Notes under the pieces: generated by a model
Told to the model about the DNA's origin: nothing
The model's input: the letters and a program-made list of their open reading frames with translations, nothing else
Databases searched by the model: none
Made by a program: the position numbers and the translations under genes
Part shown: positions 531-11,239 of the stretch, piece by piece
Layout of the letters: each line of letters starts with the position of its first letter
Position numbering within the stretch: the first letter of the stretch is position 1
IMG/VR virus record: IMGVR_UViG_3300042522_001785
Coordinates: 1 to 21,486 of that record
Length of the DNA: 21,486 nucleotides
Source: a virus
Strand: one strand, 5' to 3'

Positions 531-1856
531 TTAACTAGGTGGAGTGCTGAGGGTCTGAAGCTGTGCTTTCAGGCCATCGATCTCCGCTGCTAGTTCTTTA
601 ACCGCGTTGACCAAAACTGGAATCAGGGCAACGTACTCCATACCGAGTTTGGTCTCGGCATCCTCGGGCTCGTCAGGGATCACCTCTTTTGTGTCAAATA
701 CAGCCTCGGGGACTAAGGGACGAACTTCGTGCGCTAGGAAGCCCAGTTTTTCTTCGTCGGGCTGCGTTTTTAACGCGTACCGGACCGGGTTGAGACTCTT
801 AATCTCGTTCAGTCCGTACTCCACGGGACCGGATACATTTTTGAGTCTTGCGTCGGACGTCTGAGTTCCAACCACCGTTCCGCTGGTCGTGCCAATATGC
901 GCAGAAGAACTCGAGATTCGGAAGTTTCCGCTCGTGTCGGTCCAGTAGAGGTACCCCACATTGGCCGTGTTCTCCAGGTTCATATACGCTGAGGGAGAAG
1001 TGATTCCACTATGCTTGTATACGCCGAGTTCGGCTTGACACGATCCGCCCGCTGCCCAGATGTAGGAGAGTTGGCCATCGGCTAGAGAGCCGGACTCAAC
1101 GTAAAGCTCAACGTTTCCACTGGTGGCGGATACTTTCACGTTTCCCGCCACGTGAAGCTTTGCCGTAGGAGAGGTTGTTCCGATGCCAACATTGCCGGAG
1201 CTTACCAGCCTCATCACCTCCCATCCAGCTACTTGGAAATAAGTATATTGAGTGTTAAAGGTTCCATTACCGTTGTAATGATATAGAATATAATTGGATC
1301 CTTGACCGTACCCAACAAATCCTATATTGCCATAGGAATTAAATAAAGTGAAATTTCTTAAGTTATCGGTAGTATTTAAAAAAATTCGCGATTCAGTATT
1401 TGCAGTTATATCAAGAGAAGTGTAGTTTCCATCAAAAATTTTAATTTTTGGTCCTTCAGTTGTAGTGGTGCCAATTCCGACACTTCCACTTACATAGGCA
1501 CCACCAGTAACCTGAAGTCTTTGCGATGCGGTTCCTGTGCTTGTTTGCGCACCAATTAATACATTACCACTAAATGGAGCAAGTTTGACAGTTCCATTGG
1601 CATCCACATCGATACTAGGAATACCAGAAATATCGTTAACAGAAAAAATACTTCCAGATGTTAAATTATTTGTTATACTAAAAAGTTGCCCAGCGGATCC
1701 TTCGAAGCTTACGGTGCCGTTGGATAGCGGGTACGCTCTCAGTGTGATTGTCTGCGGCCCGAGGGAGGAGCTGGCGCCCTTAAACTCGATCTTAGGATCG
1801 TCAGTTGCGGATCCTCTATTCGCGGTTATGAGGATGTCCTTGTCGGAATTCGCCAT
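531..1856 (-). CDS. Short tail fibre with C-terminal S74 autochaperone domain
   Basis: This 441-residue protein is a short trimeric fibre. Its N-terminal region (about residues 8-130) has the cyanophage module with 'GQLFSITNNLTSGSIFSVND' and 'SVGIGTT'. A second shaft motif, GNVGIGTTSPTAKLHV, is at 221-236. The segment at about 250-333 ('LYVESGSLADGQLSYIWAAG') is the region that commonly precedes an S74 domain in marine phages. The last 108 residues are an S74 intramolecular chaperone. The motif SDARLK places the expected Ser334/Lys339 dyad, so self-cleavage before Ser334 would release the folding domain after trimer assembly. A helical, probably coiled-coil end (about 415-435) fits this. Residues about 135-215 are encoded by AT-rich DNA (18 G+C in the 60 bases 1381-1440) while the chaperone part is richer (32 in 60 at 781-840), suggesting that the recognition part was exchanged. 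The start is weakly supported by ACAAGA upstream. Confidence 0.85.
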   Translation of the reverse strand: MANSDKDILITANRGSATDDPKIEFKGASSSLGPQTITLRAYPLSNGTVSFEGSAGQLFSITNNLTSGSIFSVNDISGIPSIDVDANGTVKLAPFSGNVLIGAQTSTGTASQRLQVTGGAYVSGSVGIGTTTTEGPKIKIFDGNYTSLDITANTESRIFLNTTDNLRNFTLFNSYGNIGFVGYGQGSNYILYHYNGNGTFNTQYTYFQVAGWEVMRLVSSGNVGIGTTSPTAKLHVAGNVKVSATSGNVELYVESGSLADGQLSYIWAAGGSCQAELGVYKHSGITSPSAYMNLENTANVGYLYWTDTSGNFRISSSSAHIGTTSGTVVGTQTSDARLKNVSGPVEYGLNEIKSLNPVRYALKTQPDEEKLGFLAHEVRPLVPEAVFDTKEVIPDEPEDAETKLGMEYVALIPVLVNAVKELAAEIDGLKAQLQTLSTPPS

Positions 1857-1879: not shown

Positions 1880-3256
1880 CTATAAACCGAATCTCCCCCT
1901 GAGGGAGTTGAAGTTTTGTTGAATTTCTGTTGCTGTGAGTACTCTGTTGTACATTTGTGTTTGAGATATTCTTCCCTGAAAATACCTACTGTTAAAAAAT
2001 CCTCTTCCGATGTTCAAATTATTAAACGTACCGGCGAATCCGCTAGGACTTCCAAATGCACTTCTAGATAATCCAGTTTCATTTCCGTTGTAATAAGTAG
2101 TCGAAGTACTTGTTCCTCCATTGTATGTAATTGCAGCACAATGCCAAGTATTTGCCATTAATCCGCTACTTACAACATTATGAAAATAAAATTGACTGTT
2201 ATCTCCAGTTATATTTGAGTACGCCCAAGCAAGATTGCCCGAACTATTCATCTCTAATCTTGGTCCTACGTTTCCAGACGAATAATAACCAGAGTTGCAG
2301 TCTAGTACATTGTTATAATTTGCAACCGCTGTTGGATAGAACCAGGTGATTATTGTAAATGAGGAAAATGATCCAGATACTGCCCCACAATTTACATAAT
2401 CATCAATTCCATCAAAAAATATAGATCCTCCGCTAAAACTGTTGTAAACAGGAGAGTTTACCAATCTCCCGACGACACTATCATTGTTGTAATTTGTCAG
2501 TCTGCTCGCAGTAGCTCCGGATAGTAGCGACGCTATGGAAGGCTCTGTTCCGTCAATCGCGTCGATCCTTGGGTCAAAGAGTTGCAATCTTGTTGTATTA
2601 TCACCACAGTAATAATGATAACACCTATGAATTGCCAGAGATACATCACTTCCCGCCCATTTAACGTCCGCTCCAATATTGCAACCGTTGATCGACATTA
2701 CCTTTGTAATACCGCCAGAGGTCGTGTATATTCCAGTTTCGGGATGCTGTCCGGTGTACGTAGTATTGTAGGGGTAGCAGTGTCCTACTACTAGGTACCA
2801 GGTGTCTTGGTTGAATCTGCTGGTCCCGCTGCACTCCCAGTATGGGTTTCCCTCATAAGCGCTATTATCAGTTCTTCTAATACCACTCGAATTTCCATAC
2901 AATCCCAGATAAAATGTTCCTCCAGTCGTCGTAGAGGTCCTTTTTACCCAAACAGAAAATCTATAGAGCTTAGTGTTATCGATATTAAACCAATCGCTAT
3001 TCCAACCACCGTCATCCGCAGTGTTTCCTTGGGGTCTTGTCTCCCAAATCGTCGAAGATTTTCCAAATGGGTCCGTAGCAGTTACTCTTTCGTTTTCGGC
3101 AGTAGCGCCATTTTGATTATATCCGGTTGCTCCGCCAGAACCTAAACCCCAAGAGGTCGAGTTAATCACGGAATTTGCGAAACACTTTCTATTTGCCGCG
3201 TCAAAAGCCACTATTAGTCCACTTTCGCTTGTATCAGGGCCGGAATAAACTCCCAC
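1880..3256 (-). CDS. LamG/jelly-roll adhesin, copy 2
   Basis: This 458-residue protein probably binds glycans on the virion. After a start shared with the other LamG protein here ('SGLIVAFDAANRKCF', residues 12-26), residues about 85-225 form a first sandwich-like module ('LYRFSVWVKRTS', 'NPYWECSG', 'WYLVVGHC', 'HRCYHYYCGD') seen in cyanophage structural proteins. Residues about 260-455 are a concanavalin/LamG-like domain: FDGIDDYVNC, FTIITWF, WHCAAITYNG, LNIGRG, and the ending MYNRVLTATEIQQNFN..RGRFGL. The start codon is GTG, one base after the TGA of the 111-residue gene, behind a purine-rich GGGAGGGGAG, so translation is probably coupled. It has eight cysteines, most between residues 141 and 290. 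The ligand cannot be predicted. A non-binding structural role is possible. Confidence 0.8.
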   Translation of the reverse strand: MGVYSGPDTSESGLIVAFDAANRKCFANSVINSTSWGLGSGGATGYNQNGATAENERVTATDPFGKSSTIWETRPQGNTADDGGWNSDWFNIDNTKLYRFSVWVKRTSTTTGGTFYLGLYGNSSGIRRTDNSAYEGNPYWECSGTSRFNQDTWYLVVGHCYPYNTTYTGQHPETGIYTTSGGITKVMSINGCNIGADVKWAGSDVSLAIHRCYHYYCGDNTTRLQLFDPRIDAIDGTEPSIASLLSGATASRLTNYNNDSVVGRLVNSPVYNSFSGGSIFFDGIDDYVNCGAVSGSFSSFTIITWFYPTAVANYNNVLDCNSGYYSSGNVGPRLEMNSSGNLAWAYSNITGDNSQFYFHNVVSSGLMANTWHCAAITYNGGTSTSTTYYNGNETGLSRSAFGSPSGFAGTFNNLNIGRGFFNSRYFQGRISQTQMYNRVLTATEIQQNFNSLRGRFGL

Positions 3257-3257
3257 T

Positions 3258-3593
3258 TCACTCCCCTCCCTTTGGCATAGGTGTGGTCCACTCGGGCCCG
3301 CTCAGGATACTCAGCATCTCCTCGTAAGTGTAAGGGCCCTCTCTTGTCTCTAGATTGTCTATAAAACTTGGAGGAGTCGACTCCTGCGGTGTGATGACCT
3401 CTTGTAGGCCCGTCTCGGCGTTCACAATCGTGTACGGAGCAGGGTCGAATTGCGCCTGGTCCCACTTGACAAAGGTCCTAGTTCCGTTAGTGGATCTTCT
3501 CAGGGTCTCTGGTGAGGACTCCAGAACGGTGCTGAAGTCGACTTTATCGATTTCTTCCACGGAGAAGATTATGAAGTTTCTTGATTCGTACAT
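3258..3593 (-). CDS. Small cyanophage-type protein of unknown function (111 aa)
   Basis: I do not recognise a named family, but the pattern is familiar from small proteins near cyanophage fibre genes: 'RRSTNGTRTFVKW' (residues about 32-44), a proline-rich middle, and an ending 'EGPYTYEEMLSILSGPEWT' followed by a short basic/acidic tail. It has no signal peptide, membrane segment or cysteine. It lies between the 69-residue gene (13-base gap, no clear ribosome binding site) and the second LamG gene (one-base gap), so it is probably translated together with them. Its position between adhesin genes would fit an accessory virion protein or a folding helper, but this is inference from context only. 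Confidence 0.7.
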   Translation of the reverse strand: MYESRNFIIFSVEEIDKVDFSTVLESSPETLRRSTNGTRTFVKWDQAQFDPAPYTIVNAETGLQEVITPQESTPPSFIDNLETREGPYTYEEMLSILSGPEWTTPMPKGGE

Positions 3594-3606: not shown

Positions 3607-3816
3607 TTAGATGAACCTTTCCACTTCTACAATGTTGAAGTGAGGGTTAGATTTTATCTGGTTTTCCCACTCGTCGAAGTACGCTTTAATTATCATCTCT
3701 GGGAAGAGTTTCAACCCTCTTTGCTCGAAGATAATGTTCCCGTTCAAGTCGGTGATAACTTTATCCCAAGTATCGCCATCTCTTGAGATGGTGAGTTTCA
3801 TGTCTTTAAGTCTCAT
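3607..3816 (-). CDS. Small unknown protein (69 aa)
   Basis: This is a short acidic and basic mixed protein: 'MKLTISRDGDTWDKVITDLNGNIIFEQRGL' is likely beta-rich, followed by a helix-like 'LFPEMIIKAYFDEWENQIKS'. No known domain is recognised. AGGAG sits 7 bases before the first ATG at 3816, which supports that start over the internal Met at residue 6. It lies 10 bases after the fibrinogen-like gene. The close spacing suggests it is co-expressed with that adhesin and may assist it, but nothing in the sequence proves a function. Confidence 0.65.
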   Translation of the reverse strand: MRLKDMKLTISRDGDTWDKVITDLNGNIIFEQRGLKLFPEMIIKAYFDEWENQIKSNPHFNIVEVERFI

Positions 3817-3826
3817 CTAAGCGCTC

Positions 3827-4555
3827 CTATTTAATGTAAACGGCGCCGTATTGGTAGTAGTCCGCGCCAGAACTGTACCAGTATGGATAATCTGGATATC
3901 CGCCCCCAGCAAAATAGTTTCCGTCCCAACAAGCACCGTACCACCAGGGATTATTGCCATACATCGAAGAGCAGTTAGTTCCATAAGCATCCTGATCGTT
4001 ATCAAATGTAGTCAAATTAAACCCGTTTGCCGCGTGGTAACCATAGAATCCAGGAGCACCGGTCCCCGTCTCGTCGCTCACTGCCTCAGCGCCGGACATT
4101 GCGTAAGCGGAGGTAAAGGAATTAAACCTCCACCTATATCTTTTTGTATGAGAACCACTTAACGCGGTCCCGTTTGTTCCCGATACGAACTGAACTACAG
4201 TGATCTTTCCAGCGGTCGCTCTGTTTGCCAGAGCTGACCAGAACTTAGTCCCGACCCAGATATTGTAGTCCGCGAGACTCCTCGAACCGCTTCTCGGGTC
4301 CGCCACGGCATTCGCCGCGGCATTCGCCCCGGTTCTATAATTCACACTATGAACCGCGTTCGAGTAGGTTAGGTTGTTCATGCCTCCAGTGGCACCACGA
4401 TTTGCTAGTACGCAGACCCATCCTCCGCCACTGTAGTCCTGGTTAACGTAGACAAACTGACGATTGCCGTCGCCAAGGATGTCCAGGCTATAGAACCCGG
4501 ACGGTCCTTTTATCTGCGATATGGATGTGTAATTAGCGTTGTAGTATACACTCAT
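3827..4555 (-). CDS. Fibrinogen C-terminal-like (FReD) adhesin
   Basis: This 242-residue protein looks like a stand-alone fibrinogen-related globular domain, a fold best known from animal lectins such as ficolins. Residues about 19-53 match the family's opening: 'SGFYSLDI', then 'FVYVNQDYSGGGWVCVLANRG', which parallels the usual VYCDMxxxGGGW motif (GGGW at 43-46). The C-terminal half has the calcium-loop signature LTTFDNDQDAYGTNC (181-195) followed by WWYGAC (204-209) and a Tyr/Gly/Asp-rich end. Cys195 and Cys209 correspond to the family's last disulphide; the first conserved cysteine of VYCD is replaced by Val. In animal members this region binds acetylated sugars next to the calcium site, so surface-glycan recognition is inferred. 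There is no phage anchoring domain, so it may attach to another fibre. A good ribosome binding site (AAGGAG, 8-10 bases upstream) supports the start. It lies between a LamG gene and two small unknown genes. Confidence 0.75.
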   Translation of the reverse strand: MSVYYNANYTSISQIKGPSGFYSLDILGDGNRQFVYVNQDYSGGGWVCVLANRGATGGMNNLTYSNAVHSVNYRTGANAAANAVADPRSGSRSLADYNIWVGTKFWSALANRATAGKITVVQFVSGTNGTALSGSHTKRYRWRFNSFTSAYAMSGAEAVSDETGTGAPGFYGYHAANGFNLTTFDNDQDAYGTNCSSMYGNNPWWYGACWDGNYFAGGGYPDYPYWYSSGADYYQYGAVYIK

Positions 4556-4584: not shown

Positions 4585-5844
4585 TTAAACCCCGAACCTC
4601 CCTCTAAAAGCATTAAAGTTTTGGTTGACTTCTGCTGCCGTAAGTGCTTTCGCGTACATGGCAACAGATGAAACTCTGCCATTTACATAAAAAGAATTAA
4701 GGCCGATATCTCCTCCTATTGAGAGCGGATTTGTGTTATAATAATTTCCACCACTTGGAGTTACTGTTGATACTTCATCGTATTTATTTTTAATAATAGT
4801 TTGAGTATTTGTATTTCTGTCTAAAATGGCAGTATACATTGCCCAGGTATTATAAGTATAAGTTAAGTACCCAGTGTCTGTTCTAGAATTTGCGTCATTT
4901 CCCACCATAAATCTGACACCTAATGGATTATTTACACCTAAGTAATATCCGTTAGAACCGTTTGAGCGTTTTGCGACCCATAAATCCCAGCCATCTCCGG
5001 CATTACTTGGATCAGAATTTACCCATACGATGATAGTAAATGAACCTGTGCCTGGATTTACTGAAACAGAATTTGGAATAGAAATATAATCATTAGTTCC
5101 ATCAAAAACTAAAGAACCCCCATTGGAACTATTATAAATTGGCCCATTTACAAGTTCTCCGTTATTTCCGCTTCCAGTTAAATCTGCCCAACCACCACCT
5201 GTTGCCACCGTAGTCCCTCTAACTTGTCCAGAAGTGAGCATGTGCTCCGGCGGAATGATGTAGGTCCCCTGGTACAACGCAGCGCGGTATACATACACGC
5301 GGTTTGGTGTCGCGTATTCGTAGTGAAAAAGGTGCGTGCTTAGAGTCACTGTTGACGGACCCGTGGTAAATTGCCCCCAGGCGAACCACCAATCTCCTCC
5401 TAGAGATGTCCTGTTGCTTGTGCTATGTACCCCCGCCTCCCCGGCGTAAGCCCCAGTGTTTGTATACTCGTACCGGTACATGTAGTTTGGGTGGCTATAT
5501 CCCGTGGTGGTTTTATAGATTATCGAGTAAGTGTAGGTAGTGCTGGGGGAAACTGCCAGTCCGCTACCGTAGTTGTATAGACTCGGACAGCATTGCCCAG
5601 AGCCTCCACTGTAGTCGTTGTAAAAATCAACGTACTTGGAAGTCACGGTTCCTAGCGCCGGTATGTAGACAACCTCCTCTCCATTGGAGACTTTGTACAC
5701 AGAAGAACTCTGGTTGCTTTGGGCATAGGATACGGTGGTTAGGATGTTGGTTGCGTTAACACCCTTGAAACTCTTGTAATTTGCAGCATCTAAGCAGAGG
5801 GCCAGGCCGCTGGTAACAATAGATGGTGAGTGTCCTAGTGACAT
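4585..5844 (-). CDS. LamG/jelly-roll adhesin, copy 1
   Basis: This 419-residue protein is a paralogue in layout of the LamG protein further left. It starts with 'SGLALCLDAANYKSF' (residues 12-26), has a first sandwich-like module at about 60-200 ('TTYTYSIIYKTT', 'WWFAWGQFT', 'VYVYRAALYQG'), then a LamG-like domain at about 220-410: 'DLTGSGNNGELVNGPIYN', 'LVFDGTNDYISIP', 'FTIIVWV', 'LSIGGD', and an ending LTAAEVNQNFNAFRGRFGV nearly the same as the other copy. It is expected to be a virion glycan-binding protein. GGAGGGATGATCTC precedes the ATG, and this ribosome binding site overlaps the end of the 1152-residue fibre gene, so the two are probably coupled. The LamG half is AT-rich (20 G+C in the 60 bases 4681-4740) while the N-terminal half is not (31 in 60 at 5281-5340), a sign of domain shuffling. 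Confidence 0.8.
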   Translation of the reverse strand: MSLGHSPSIVTSGLALCLDAANYKSFKGVNATNILTTVSYAQSNQSSSVYKVSNGEEVVYIPALGTVTSKYVDFYNDYSGGSGQCCPSLYNYGSGLAVSPSTTYTYSIIYKTTTGYSHPNYMYRYEYTNTGAYAGEAGVHSTSNRTSLGGDWWFAWGQFTTGPSTVTLSTHLFHYEYATPNRVYVYRAALYQGTYIIPPEHMLTSGQVRGTTVATGGGWADLTGSGNNGELVNGPIYNSSNGGSLVFDGTNDYISIPNSVSVNPGTGSFTIIVWVNSDPSNAGDGWDLWVAKRSNGSNGYYLGVNNPLGVRFMVGNDANSRTDTGYLTYTYNTWAMYTAILDRNTNTQTIIKNKYDEVSTVTPSGGNYYNTNPLSIGGDIGLNSFYVNGRVSSVAMYAKALTAAEVNQNFNAFRGRFGV

Positions 5845-5848
5845 GAGA

Positions 5849-8800
5849 TCATCCCTCCAGTTCTACCTCTAGTCTATCTACATCGGCTCGTTCGGCAAAT
5901 ACCGTATAAAAGTACTCCACCTCGGAGCACTCTGATCCAACATATACCCTATTCCCCTCGATGCTTTCAACCCAGAGCGTCTGAGTTTTGCCTATCGGGG
6001 TCAGATTCACCGTGATGGAGTCAGGGTCCACGAGCTTCGTCCAGTACTCAGGTAGTTCGATGGTTGTCGAGTTGTTCCGGCCACGAACATAGACGCCATT
6101 CTCAGGGCCTTCGAGGCTTCCGTAGCGAAGGCGATAGCCCTCCTTGGTCGGGTGGGGGATAACAAAGCTCTTCGTAGTAGCGGCAAATGACCCACTGACC
6201 TCAAGTTTGTACGCTGGGTTAGTGATTCCTATTCCAACATTTCCAGAATTATTCCAGGTCATTACGTCACCACCACCAGTCAAGTACATTCTTAACTGGT
6301 TTGATATTGAGGCGGGACGATACAGAACTGCCATCTCGGACCCAGCCTGACTAAACTGAATACCACTTTGATTGGACAGGATATTATCCAATGTCAATCT
6401 TCCGCCATATACATGCAATTTATCAGTTGGATTTGTTGTTCCTATGCCAACATTACCAGTAACAGTTAAATTTCCTGCACCAGTTAGGGTTGCAATATTA
6501 GTAGTTCCTGCATACCACTTGAATTGTCTAGAAGTATTTGGTACAGAGCTCCATAAAGTATCGAATTCATAACCAATAGCATAATCTACCGCAACCGAAG
6601 ATATGTTTGGATATATTGTGATTTTGGTTCCAGCACTTCTTGTTCCGAATGTAGGAGGCCCGTCACCATTTTGGTTAAAGTCTATTCTATTTCCGTTTGA
6701 ACCGTTTAGATAAATTTGCCCACCGCCAGTTGCTGTGGAGTTTGATTGTGTAGATTGAATTTGCCCAGGGAAAGAGATTGTTCCTCCACTGTAACTCAGA
6801 GAACCTTGGTATGAGAATAAGAAATAATCAGTCGGACTAGAATCACTTCCTCCTCCAGGTGCAATATAAGCACCTCCAGTATAACTACCACCATTTGCTC
6901 TATAAGAACCAATGCTTAAAATTTGTCTATATCCACCAGTTACTAGGGTTCTCTGAAGTAAAAACGGAGTAAATCCACCAGAACCAGCATTTACTTCAGT
7001 GCAGTAAATTGGATAACTGTTTCCAATACCGATGCCTGTAATTGCTGAATATGTAGATGGGTTCGCTGTTTGTAACTGACCTGTTACATGAAGTTTAGAA
7101 AGCGGATTTGTTACTCCGATTCCAACATTTCCAGCAACATATAACCCACCAACTCCTAATTTTGCATTTGGATCAGTAACTACCGAATTGCCCGTAAGAC
7201 TAAATCTAAAGTGTCCTTTACCGCCTTCATTTGGATAATATGATAAATCTCCCCATGAAACATCGGCTCCATTAAATCTGATTGATGTGCTATATTGATC
7301 CCCTGTTAAAGAACTTACCGAAGCGACATTACCAAAAAATGCTGAAACTGTCTGTAATGGAGTATCTGCCCAAATAGCAGTGTTTGAAATAATAGAAGAA
7401 GCCGAAGAACTATTAGTAAATCTTGCGCCTCCATTAACATTCAATTTTGTAGTTGGAGCATTAGTTCCAATTCCAACATTACCATTTGAAGCTACTACTA
7501 ATGACGGAGAGGAATAAGATGGTCCTATCCAAAAATACGTGGTTGTATCATTGTTTCCGTATATACCAAATCCGCCTAGATCGGTACTACTGGAACCTCT
7601 AAAATAATAACCTTCGACCCATCCACCCAATTCGCCTTTGATATAGACGCTGGTATCAATTGTAGTGCTTCTGCCCGTATTTGATCCTACAAAATAAGCA
7701 GGACCTCTGACATCTAGTTTTGCGGTGGGGCTAGTAGTGCCGATCCCGACGCGGCCGAAGCTGTCAACCGTAACAGCCGTGCTTGTGCCAACTACAAGCT
7801 GGTGAGACGAGCCCTGAAGGACTAAGTTTGCAAAAGCTGATTCGTTACCATTTGTAGCGGCCAACTTAACGCCGGCACCCGTTTCGAACGGGAGGATCCT
7901 AAAGATGCCATTAGTGCTCTTAAATCGAGCGGCAATAGTGTTATCGGATGTTGCACAAGTAAATAACGTATCTGGCGCAGAAGTCCCCACCCCCAAGCGG
8001 CCACTGGAGTCGATGACAAGGCTATTAACAGGTGCGCTGCCGTTGAAGCTGACGGCTTGAGTGACGCCTGCGGTGCCAGCGCCTTTGAACTGGAAGCCGC
8101 CACTTGCGTCGATCCTGGCAACTTCAGTTCCGCCTTGATAAATCTGAATTGGTGCGCCACCGTCCATGCGCAGACCACCAGACATCAGCGCCATTGATTG
8201 CGTAGCCCCACTATTGGTTGCACGGATAACAGGATCCGTGACAGTTGACCCACCGATCACTTGAAGTGGGACATTAGGCCCAGTGGTACCAATGCCGACG
8301 CGGCCAAGGTAATCAATGCGTACTTTTTCAACACAAGCAGAGGTATCATCTCCAGTACTAAATGCAATTTCACCTCTGTTTACAAAAGCTCCGGTAATAA
8401 ATGAAATTCTTGTTGTTTCAAACTGATTGGCAGAACCAGCAAAAGAACTAACGCTTCTAATTAAAGAGTTTGCTGTGGTAAAAGCTGCACCATTTGTAAG
8501 CCTAAAATTACCGGATGCTAAATGCAGTGCATCAGCAGGCACAGAAGCCCCCACCCCCAAGCGCCCACTCGCATCCACAAACAACCGCCCCGTGCCGGCG
8601 GTGCTGAGAGCTAGCTGATCTGCGCCGGGGGAGTAGATGCCGGTGTTGGGGTCACCGGTAAAAGTTAGCGCCGGAGCTGCAGCGCTACCTAAAGGGTAAC
8701 TAAATCGCTCACTGCTGGTCCAAGCGTCCGTGGCATCGATCCAGTTAATAGTTTTATCCGTAGCGCCTTTCAGCGTGATGCCACCTCCATCTGCTAGGGC

Positions 8801-9307
8801 ATCGGTCGGCGAGGCTGAATCACCAAGGACGATATTCTTATCGTCAACTGTCAGCGTTGTGGAGTTAATAGTGGTGGTAGCGCCCTGGACGGTCAGGTTG
8901 CCCTTAATAACCACGTCGCCCGTATCATCACCCACTGTCGCTGGGTCGATGATGAAGGTGCTGGGGCCACGAAGTTGGCCGGTGAGAGTTAGGTTATTGG
9001 CGCCCAAGTCACCCTGCTGGGAGGAGCCTATGCCCGCACCGTACTCGCTATAGAGCAGGATCCAGCACTCGGTGCCTGTCTGCGGTGCCTCGGAAAACAC
9101 AATTGTGTCCGATGATGCATAATAGGCCTGCCCGGGTTCCTGTAGCACACCTCCAAGGCTAACGATCAGTGACTCGGAGAGTGTCGGGTAGGTGGGTACT
9201 CCACCATAACGCAGGTCAAAGGTGGTTAGGACGCCGTTAAACTGAGACTCGATTGAGTCCAGCATTTTCTGTGTTCCAACAGCAGGATTACGTCCTAAAT
9301 AGGCCAT
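5849..9307 (-). CDS. Long tail fibre with 'HP...LRYGSLEGPE' C-terminal domain
   Basis: This 1152-residue protein is a long tail fibre. Residues 1-90 form a cyanophage attachment module ('MAYLGRNPAVGTQKMLDSI', 'LGGVLQEPGQAYYASSDTIVF'). Residues about 130-200 carry 'TTTINSTTLTVDDKNIVLGD', common in T4-like marine phage structural proteins, followed by 'LTFTGDPNTGIYSPGADQLALS'. Eight shaft motifs of the G(N/R)(V/L)G(I/V)GTTxPxxKLxV type follow. Instead of an S74 domain, the last 106 residues (about 1047-1152) form another conserved tip: FVIPHPTKEGYRLRYGSLEGPE, then ELPEYWTKLVD, then ITVNLTPIGKTQTLWV. The part encoded at about 6200-7700 is AT-rich (20 G+C in 60 bases at 7381-7440), while the N-terminal shaft is GC-rich (37 in 60 at 8521-8580). 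The tail assembly chaperone gene lies directly upstream, and its leader is shared with the fibre gene at the left edge. Confidence 0.88.
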   Translation of the reverse strand: MAYLGRNPAVGTQKMLDSIESQFNGVLTTFDLRYGGVPTYPTLSESLIVSLGGVLQEPGQAYYASSDTIVFSEAPQTGTECWILLYSEYGAGIGSSQQGDLGANNLTLTGQLRGPSTFIIDPATVGDDTGDVVIKGNLTVQGATTTINSTTLTVDDKNIVLGDSASPTDALADGGGITLKGATDKTINWIDATDAWTSSERFSYPLGSAAAPALTFTGDPNTGIYSPGADQLALSTAGTGRLFVDASGRLGVGASVPADALHLASGNFRLTNGAAFTTANSLIRSVSSFAGSANQFETTRISFITGAFVNRGEIAFSTGDDTSACVEKVRIDYLGRVGIGTTGPNVPLQVIGGSTVTDPVIRATNSGATQSMALMSGGLRMDGGAPIQIYQGGTEVARIDASGGFQFKGAGTAGVTQAVSFNGSAPVNSLVIDSSGRLGVGTSAPDTLFTCATSDNTIAARFKSTNGIFRILPFETGAGVKLAATNGNESAFANLVLQGSSHQLVVGTSTAVTVDSFGRVGIGTTSPTAKLDVRGPAYFVGSNTGRSTTIDTSVYIKGELGGWVEGYYFRGSSSTDLGGFGIYGNNDTTTYFWIGPSYSSPSLVVASNGNVGIGTNAPTTKLNVNGGARFTNSSSASSIISNTAIWADTPLQTVSAFFGNVASVSSLTGDQYSTSIRFNGADVSWGDLSYYPNEGGKGHFRFSLTGNSVVTDPNAKLGVGGLYVAGNVGIGVTNPLSKLHVTGQLQTANPSTYSAITGIGIGNSYPIYCTEVNAGSGGFTPFLLQRTLVTGGYRQILSIGSYRANGGSYTGGAYIAPGGGSDSSPTDYFLFSYQGSLSYSGGTISFPGQIQSTQSNSTATGGGQIYLNGSNGNRIDFNQNGDGPPTFGTRSAGTKITIYPNISSVAVDYAIGYEFDTLWSSVPNTSRQFKWYAGTTNIATLTGAGNLTVTGNVGIGTTNPTDKLHVYGGRLTLDNILSNQSGIQFSQAGSEMAVLYRPASISNQLRMYLTGGGDVMTWNNSGNVGIGITNPAYKLEVSGSFAATTKSFVIPHPTKEGYRLRYGSLEGPENGVYVRGRNNSTTIELPEYWTKLVDPDSITVNLTPIGKTQTLWVESIEGNRVYVGSECSEVEYFYTVFAERADVDRLEVELEG

Positions 9308-9832: not shown

Positions 9833-11239
9833 TTATAACGTAGTCACCGTTGGGCTGATAGTCCTAGCGGCGTCAGCGTACGAAGAAGCAGCGCTGGTCA
9901 ATGTTCCAGCCGCGTCAGTTAGTGTGGCTGTAGCATTTGTAGCACTTGGAGTAGAGTAAGTTTTATTTGCTACAGCATAAGTATAGATTCCGTAGGTGCC
10001 GGTTACGGACCCATCTCCTCTTAGTTTAATAAACAGACCTTGTGAACTATAATTACTATCATATGACAATGCAACGCAGTACATATTAGAGGAGGAATCT
10101 ACTGACATATCCGCTGCGAGCCAACTTGCCGTAATATAATAGGGTTGATTGTCTCTAAGGTATCTCTGCCACTGGAGGGTTCCACTTGTATCAATTTTAG
10201 CAAAAACAAGAACGTAGTATAGTGTAGATCCCTCAGTCACCTCGCTTAGTGCAGCAGTGTAGGAATTGCCACTCGAGTCCACAGCTATAGCCCCAAAATT
10301 ACAACCGCTTAAACTTCTCTGCCACTGCAGATTTCCGTTAGTGTCATATTTAACTATGGTGTCAACGTTACTACTAGCGTATAGATTCCCCGAAGCATCG
10401 GCTGCTACCGAGAAAAAGTACCAACCATTACCGGAGCCAAAATTCCTCTGCCACTGGAGAGTTCCGCTTGAGTTATACTTTGCAATAAACGCGGTTCCAG
10501 GGCTTAGACCGTAACCGGCTCCGCAGATGTAGACATTTTCAGAAGAGTCTATTGTGGCATCCCAGAGGGACTCCGAGCTAGCTGATGATAAGGTTCTCTG
10601 CCACTGAAGATTACCATTTGTGTCGTACTTGGCGGTCAGTATGTTACTGTTGGCTCCTGCAGCTTCAGTTGTCCCTGAGAAATAAACGTTACCAGCAGAG
10701 CTTACCGCTAGTTTAAAAGCTAGGTCGTTATACGGACCGCTAAGAGTCCTCTGCCACTGGAGGGTTCCACTAGAGTTATACTTTACCAGTAAAACATCAC
10801 TGCCTCCTTGACCCGCAACGTAAACGTTACCAGAGCCGTCGTAGCCTACTCCATTGCCCCAAGTAACAGTGTAAGCGCCCAGGGACCTCTGCCACTGAAC
10901 AGTTCCGTTGGCATCGGCCTTTACTATATACGCCCCCGCACTTTCACTACCCGCCGAACCCGCTAAATAGACGTTTGTTGACGAGTCCCTAGCAACAGCT
11001 GCGAGCTCAGTACCGTTGCCGTAGTTTCCGTACGTACGTATGAAGTACGTGTGGGTGAAGGAGGATTTACCGTAGAAGTTGCTCAGCGATATAGTGCCGG
11101 AACTGATGCCAGCGAGGCTTCTCAGAGCGGTCTCATTGAGCGAGGAGTTGGCACCTGCGGCTCTACCCAACTCGAGGTTGATCGAGCGGTTCGTCGTCGA
11201 GCCACCAATACTGATCTCACCGGACGATACTAGGGGCAT
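9833..11239 (-). CDS. Beta-propeller adhesin with phage N-terminal anchor
   Basis: Residues 1-60 form a phage/tail-associated module ('ISIGGSTTNRSINLELGR', 'LRSLAGISSGTISLSNFYGKSS') seen at the start of various tail proteins. Residues about 61-430 are SBBP-like propeller repeats: each has '(N)VYxAG', '(L/A)KYNSSGTLQWQR' and a loop. Six WQR motifs are visible and the C-terminal 'GLFIKLRGDGSVTGTYG' looks like a seventh, so a seven-bladed propeller is plausible. The last 40 residues are Ala/Thr/Ser-rich. Such propellers usually bind surface ligands, so this is probably a receptor-binding virion protein. The ATG overlaps the TAA of the previous gene by one base (TAATG), which implies coupled translation. 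The assembly chaperone gene follows. An enzymatic role is not excluded, but no catalytic motif is seen. Confidence 0.8.
   Translation of the reverse strand: MPLVSSGEISIGGSTTNRSINLELGRAAGANSSLNETALRSLAGISSGTISLSNFYGKSSFTHTYFIRTYGNYGNGTELAAVARDSSTNVYLAGSAGSESAGAYIVKADANGTVQWQRSLGAYTVTWGNGVGYDGSGNVYVAGQGGSDVLLVKYNSSGTLQWQRTLSGPYNDLAFKLAVSSAGNVYFSGTTEAAGANSNILTAKYDTNGNLQWQRTLSSASSESLWDATIDSSENVYICGAGYGLSPGTAFIAKYNSSGTLQWQRNFGSGNGWYFFSVAADASGNLYASSNVDTIVKYDTNGNLQWQRSLSGCNFGAIAVDSSGNSYTAALSEVTEGSTLYYVLVFAKIDTSGTLQWQRYLRDNQPYYITASWLAADMSVDSSSNMYCVALSYDSNYSSQGLFIKLRGDGSVTGTYGIYTYAVANKTYSTPSATNATATLTDAAGTLTSAASSYADAARTISPTVTTL
10166..10897 (-). repeat. Propeller-blade DNA repeat (six units)
   Basis: The plus-strand word ctgccactg, encoding the conserved QWQ of each blade, occurs at 10166, 10319, 10448, 10598, 10751 and 10889. 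The spacings are 153, 129, 150, 153 and 138 bases, all multiples of three (43-51 residues per blade). Flanking bases are also similar, for example 'ggagggttccac' at two copies. Confidence 0.85.

Follow-up and report, generated by a model that had tools for sequence, protein, structure and literature searches.

What is a fibrinogen C-terminal (FBG) domain doing among the fibre genes of a phage, and what does the small gene directly after it contribute? The locus that raises these questions lies in a 21,486-base virus record, referred to below as the window (the whole stretch of DNA that was analysed). Its 142-aa and 126-aa proteins share 82-86% identity with those of Cyanophages S-TIM5, S-TIM54, and S-TIM61, members of Aurunvirus with Synechococcus hosts, and the gene run that follows the portal (142-353-279-658-76-126) is syntenic between the window and these phages. 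On these sequence grounds, the window is an S-TIM5-like (Aurunvirus) phage. Beyond the syntenic run, the fibre genes of the window diverge from those of S-TIM5, S-TIM54, and S-TIM61, and neither the FBG gene nor its small partner was found at the syntenic locus of the three phages; the FBG gene therefore lies in a variable host-recognition region. The preliminary description had placed it in an adhesin locus, which is supported by its position within the following run of fibre genes:

531-1856, minus strand: 441-aa S74 fibre (Pfam Peptidase_S74)
1880-3256, minus strand: 458-aa LamG adhesin (Pfam Laminin_G_3, E 4.4e-22)
3258-3593, minus strand: 111-aa small accessory gene (relatives in L002, L034, and L038)
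3607-3816, minus strand: 69-aa partner, proposed dedicated chaperone/assembly factor of the FBG domain (pairing, copy number, AlphaFold2)
3827-4555, minus strand: stand-alone FBG-domain protein, 242 aa, proposed receptor-binding tip (PF00147, PDB profile, AlphaFold2, Foldseek)
4585-5844, minus strand: 419-aa LamG-like adhesin, directly upstream of FBG (PHROG 24074/8510)
5849-9307, minus strand: 1152-aa fibre protein, sharing mainly its N-terminal 163 aa with S-TIM5 gp127

The 419-aa LamG-like protein is 27% identical over 320 aa to the 458-aa LamG protein and did not itself match any Pfam family significantly. The C-terminal domain of the 1152-aa fibre is found, in several other phages, at the end of the gene directly upstream of FBG. 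The relatives of the 111-aa gene lie near LamG/S74 adhesins and are not specific to FBG; this is possibly another adhesin-specific accessory gene. S-TIM5 gp125 (80 aa, after a fibre) was considered as a counterpart of the small partner and rejected, its sequence being charged, helix-like, and without a match. A promoter and terminator scan gave no more signals than shuffled sequences. The fibre region also holds a beta-propeller-repeat protein (9833-11239; SBBP/PQQ_2 Pfam matches), in a place comparable to that of an unmatched 471-aa gene in S-TIM5. Another contig, L009, matches the window at 100% identity over 6460 nt and at ~99.8% after; inside the 1152-aa fibre gene, however, ~214 nt (window 7764-7978) give way to an unrelated module of 333 nt (L009 6461-6793) flanked by VGxGTxSP repeats, which looks like a recent exchange of modules between sister phages.

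The 242-aa protein is a genuine FBG domain. Its stand-alone reading frame, with an AAGGAG ribosome-binding site ahead of the ATG, is confirmed at 3827-4555 on the minus strand, and the motifs by which it had been recognised (VYVNQDYSGGGW, FDNDQD, NC, and WWYGAC) are all there in FBG order. Pfam PF00147 (Fibrinogen_C) matches the protein with an E of 1.5e-5 (25.4 bits, for a cut-off of 22); the same record searched as six-frame fragments gives 20.3 bits, below this cut-off, and NCBIfam GGGWT_bact gives 25.1 bits, below its own cut-off of 30. PF00147 is also matched by 25 of 34 aligned relatives (E<=0.01), for which no other Pfam family is reported. In PDB searches, the single sequence retrieves fibrinogen-420 (E 5.9e-5), and the family profile retrieves ANGPTL6 (1.5e-10), tenascin, and ficolin-3 (4.9e-10). 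The AlphaFold2 model (pLDDT 85.6, pTM 0.89), used as a Foldseek query, is matched to fibrinogen, angiopoietin, and ficolin (E ~1e-8 to 1e-9, probability 1.00, TM 0.6-0.7), and such TM values point to a shared fold in which loops have been remodelled. The profile search and the structure prediction, both proposed at the outset, return FBG proteins, with ficolin among the matches.

The calcium loop and the cysteines depart from what had first been described. The former is located as follows:

3971-4006, minus strand: calcium-loop segment FDNDQDAYGTNC, residues 184-195, predicted Ca ligands Asp187 and Asp189 (fibrinogen gamma alignment)

Asp184 and Asp186, previously named as the calcium residues, were wrongly numbered: residue 184 is a Phe, and the fibrinogen gamma alignment points to Asp187 and Asp189, which would be the calcium ligands of the window protein. 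Both are kept in 39 of the 41 full-length relatives, the exceptions being L047 and L088. The variant without the DxD calcium motif in L088/L089 (1742-2716) has kept its partner, and follows a ThyX-like gene (assigned by eye), not a fibre gene. The loss of the first canonical cysteine holds, but it is not the only one, as both cysteines of the N-terminal disulfide are absent from the window protein. This pair (NKC...FYCD) is retained only in some relatives, e.g., L012/L045/L050; considering the fold and profile matches, its absence is a variable feature and no ground for exclusion from the FBG family. The cysteines of the C-terminal disulfide, Cys195 and Cys209, are present in 41/41 full-length relatives. 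Trp210, which directly follows the fourth cysteine, is just as invariant (41/41), and gives CW where the alignments show CH in the ficolin/tachylectin lectins. In these lectins, the His after the fourth cysteine lines the acetyl pocket; ficolin-type acetyl-sugar specificity should, therefore, not be assumed for phage FBG domains.

The 69-aa gene, missed in the preliminary description, tells more about the locus than any other part of it, and its start is interlocked with the end of the FBG gene:

3817-3829, minus strand: stop codon (TAG) of the FBG gene, overlapping the TAGGAG ribosome-binding site of the 69-aa gene (sequence)

The stop codon is separated from the ATG of the 69-aa gene by 10 nt, and the overlap suggests that translation of the two genes may be coupled. 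The 69-aa protein belongs to a previously undescribed family. It matched none of the Pfam and PHROG families searched, nor any PDB entry in a profile search. AlphaFold2 predicts a compact beta-beta-beta-alpha-beta domain (pLDDT 94.8), for which Foldseek returned nothing significant from the PDB (best E 0.017). Comparison with Tfa, gp38, gp57A, and Pam3 gp25 revealed no sequence or fold kinship, and the only candidate relative in cultured phages, a weak match in Aeromonas phage Aeh1 (E 0.2), was disregarded.

In this phage family, the gene for this same uncharacterised protein of ~70 residues almost always comes directly after FBG. Two IMG/VR scans yielded 59 FBG loci (45 unique FBG genes once later loci were added), many of them stand-alone genes directly after a long fibre gene. 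A small open reading frame lies directly 3' of nearly every one of these genes. To avoid circularity, IMG/VR was also scanned with the small protein alone, using as a query the closer subset of the partner alignment. This gave 24 loci, spread over several myovirus lineages, and FBG was directly upstream in all 23 that had enough upstream DNA (such scans recover relatives of the query only, and the contigs are fragments). Two further scans with divergent partners showed FBG upstream at 25/25 loci, mostly on the same contigs as before, including two loci on one contig where only a 73-aa FBG remnant is left. The partner is present as a single copy in 25 of 29 whole records, including records of 103-310 kb, and FBG is single-copy in an overlapping set of 30 records, save for one tandem pair. 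Among 30 unique pairs, the gap between the two genes ranges from -7 to +11 nt, often with ATGA overlaps. The pairwise identities of FBG and partner are correlated (r 0.71, a value reached in 0 of 2000 permutations), which partly reflects shared ancestry.

There are exceptions to this pairing. L043, L046, L053, and L016/L017 carry a non-homologous gene downstream of FBG (hhalign probability 0.3%), and L010/L047/L055 merely a remote relative of the partner (hhalign probability 91%). The genes found after FBG in the former group (from 10661 onward in L043) constitute a second, unrelated family (A6; 81-133 aa), possibly a replacement partner. No partner accompanies the bacterial FBG proteins (five proteins from MAGs). 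In L018 (9995-10216; contig shared with L111 and L126), no more than the last 73 residues of an FBG frame are left, beside fibre-like sequence, and an intact partner gene follows them; this locus reads as a decaying or recombined cassette.

FBG domains are also swapped between adhesins. In L043, L046, and L053, FBG is fused, in place of S74, to the head domain of the 441-aa S74 fibre of the window (31-35% identity, E 1.7e-9 to 5e-11), and in L052/L056, it takes the place of LamG on the N-terminal domain of the 458-aa LamG protein of the window (55-57% identity, ~217 aa); these heads are, thus, found with S74, LamG, or FBG ends. At many loci, FBG comes directly after a long fibre gene, with which it overlaps at some. 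An exchangeable tip, as first proposed, is supported by these swaps and by the location of the gene in a variable fibre region that S-TIM5, S-TIM54, and S-TIM61 each fill differently; the FBG protein is probably a swappable host-recognition tip. Carriers of the two genes include phages with T4-type portals (228 to 633 bits), contigs as long as 310 kb, and the Aurunvirus-like window; among the other carrier contigs, only L009 has the 142-aa protein of the window. Given these differing portals and the Aurunvirus-like window, the cassette spans several lineages. The partner gene is present after the fused FBG of L052/L056 as well, which ties it to the FBG domain rather than to FBG as a separate protein. 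This dependence on the domain itself favours a chaperone over an adaptor.

We consider it somewhat probable that the locus, situated where the fibre genes of this S-TIM5-like cyanomyovirus vary, is a two-gene host-recognition cassette, associating an FBG receptor-binding tip with a dedicated chaperone of ~70 aa. The first gene would encode the tip, placed on the virion and presumably binding a receptor with the help of calcium; it would usually be a separate small protein, translated with the neighbouring fibre or adhesin gene, and would sometimes form the C-terminal part of a larger adhesin. The second would act on the FBG domain, as a chaperone in the folding of the tip or its loading onto the fibre, and its role for FBG tips would be that of the S74 domain built into the neighbouring fibres. 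The partner is, in our opinion, probably a dedicated folding helper of FBG. This tip/chaperone reading, modelled by analogy on the Pam3 gp24/gp25 and Alteromonas V22/A5 pairs, appears the most likely one, and the locus has the arrangement of tail-fibre chaperone pairs, with a cognate gene directly downstream of the proposed receptor-binding gene. Against it stands the result that the 69-aa partner resembles no known fibre chaperone in sequence and fold searches. A more far-reaching version, to which we give slightly less than an even chance, is that FBG and its partner, the latter representing a new chaperone family, form a mobile and self-contained cassette for host recognition. The two genes would travel together between cyanomyovirus and jumbo-phage lineages that are unrelated, with FBG either stand-alone on a fibre or fused to various adhesin heads.

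The main rival to a chaperone is a virion co-subunit, in which case the 69-aa protein would be an adaptor plugging the stand-alone FBG onto the fibre. The stand-alone protein has only ~18 residues before its domain and no obvious anchor, and a compact, confidently folded partner would suit such a role; nevertheless, an adaptor would be needless in L052 and L056, where the partner is found although a covalent fusion already joins FBG to its carrier. We, therefore, regard the co-subunit as unlikely, if worth keeping in view. The missing fibre anchor of the window gene, together with the fact that animal FBG lectins are often soluble, could also point to a late soluble lectin acting off the virion (e.g., coating host debris or blocking superinfection) and regulated by the partner. 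This appears improbable, as FBG sits inside a fibre gene run, often directly after a fibre gene, and also occurs fused to adhesin heads, while a search by eye for a signal peptide in the window protein revealed none.

Targeting of the FBG gene by a diversity-generating retroelement, which would account for the C-terminal substitutions between close relatives, is very improbable and was rejected. The differences between L001 and L008 do fall mostly in the C-terminal half, but many are synonymous and they are not adenine-specific; moreover, no template repeat was found within the flanks (up to 10 kb) of FBG genes and no reverse transcriptase in 29 records.

In environmental phages, the parts that bind the receptor are difficult to spot, and expressing them often fails unless their chaperone is present. 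If the tip/chaperone reading is true, it provides both a recognisable tip domain and the partner needed to make it, as well as a means of following the exchange of tips among uncultured phages, whose hosts are probably picocyanobacteria. Viruses would then also be using, to bind bacteria, a fold familiar mainly from the innate-immune lectins of animals, with a remodelled pocket whose ligand is directly testable.

Among known systems, a receptor-binding gene with a cognate chaperone gene is described for Pam3 gp24/gp25, Alteromonas V22/A5, and Mu Tfa (PMC9608196, PMC10579305). Pam3 gp25, at 162 aa, combines a beta-sandwich with a helical trimerisation domain, whereas the window partner has 69 aa and a beta-beta-beta-alpha-beta fold; no sequence or fold match links the partner to Pam3 gp25, the V22/A5 chaperone, or Mu Tfa. 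The FBG domain had been presented as a mainly animal fold, a view not borne out by the annotation of the cultured phage PaBG, by five bacterial MAG proteins, and by an NCBI bacterial FBG model. Little literature was found on phage FBG proteins, and tblastn with four FBG subfamilies against ~50,700 phage records found no cultured-phage relatives, although more divergent FBG domains do occur in cultured phages. Pseudomonas phage PaBG gp217 (YP_008433589.1, putative fibrinogen domain-like protein) is a stand-alone FBG of ~223 aa beside a putative adhesin, but its sequence is too divergent for tblastn, and the next annotated gene, 10 nt on, is the adhesin instead of a small partner. The C-terminal region of Prochlorococcus phage P-SSM4 gp5 offers an FBG-like domain in a cyanophage virion protein; this is a baseplate hub/lysozyme protein with a weak FBG match (E 0.0012), and no partner gene was found. 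Marine metaviromic islands contain 'fibrinogen-like' genes, proposed as variable host-recognition genes of marine phages (PMC3909814); in the part of that source consulted, these are labelled only 'fibrinogen-like coiled coil', without description of a partner, structure, or architecture. With PaBG gp217, P-SSM4 gp5, and these island genes, the FBG domain was, thus, already known in phages. Ficolins, tachylectin-5A, and FIBCD1 have the FBG fold, a DxD motif (a predicted calcium site in the phage proteins), and the C-terminal disulfide in common with the phage FBG family, which differs from them by a shorter loop after the fourth cysteine, by the invariant Trp210 in place of the usual His, and, in most members, by the loss of the N-terminal disulfide. 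While the FBG domain itself has precedents, its linked, undescribed partner family and its swapping between adhesin heads are new.
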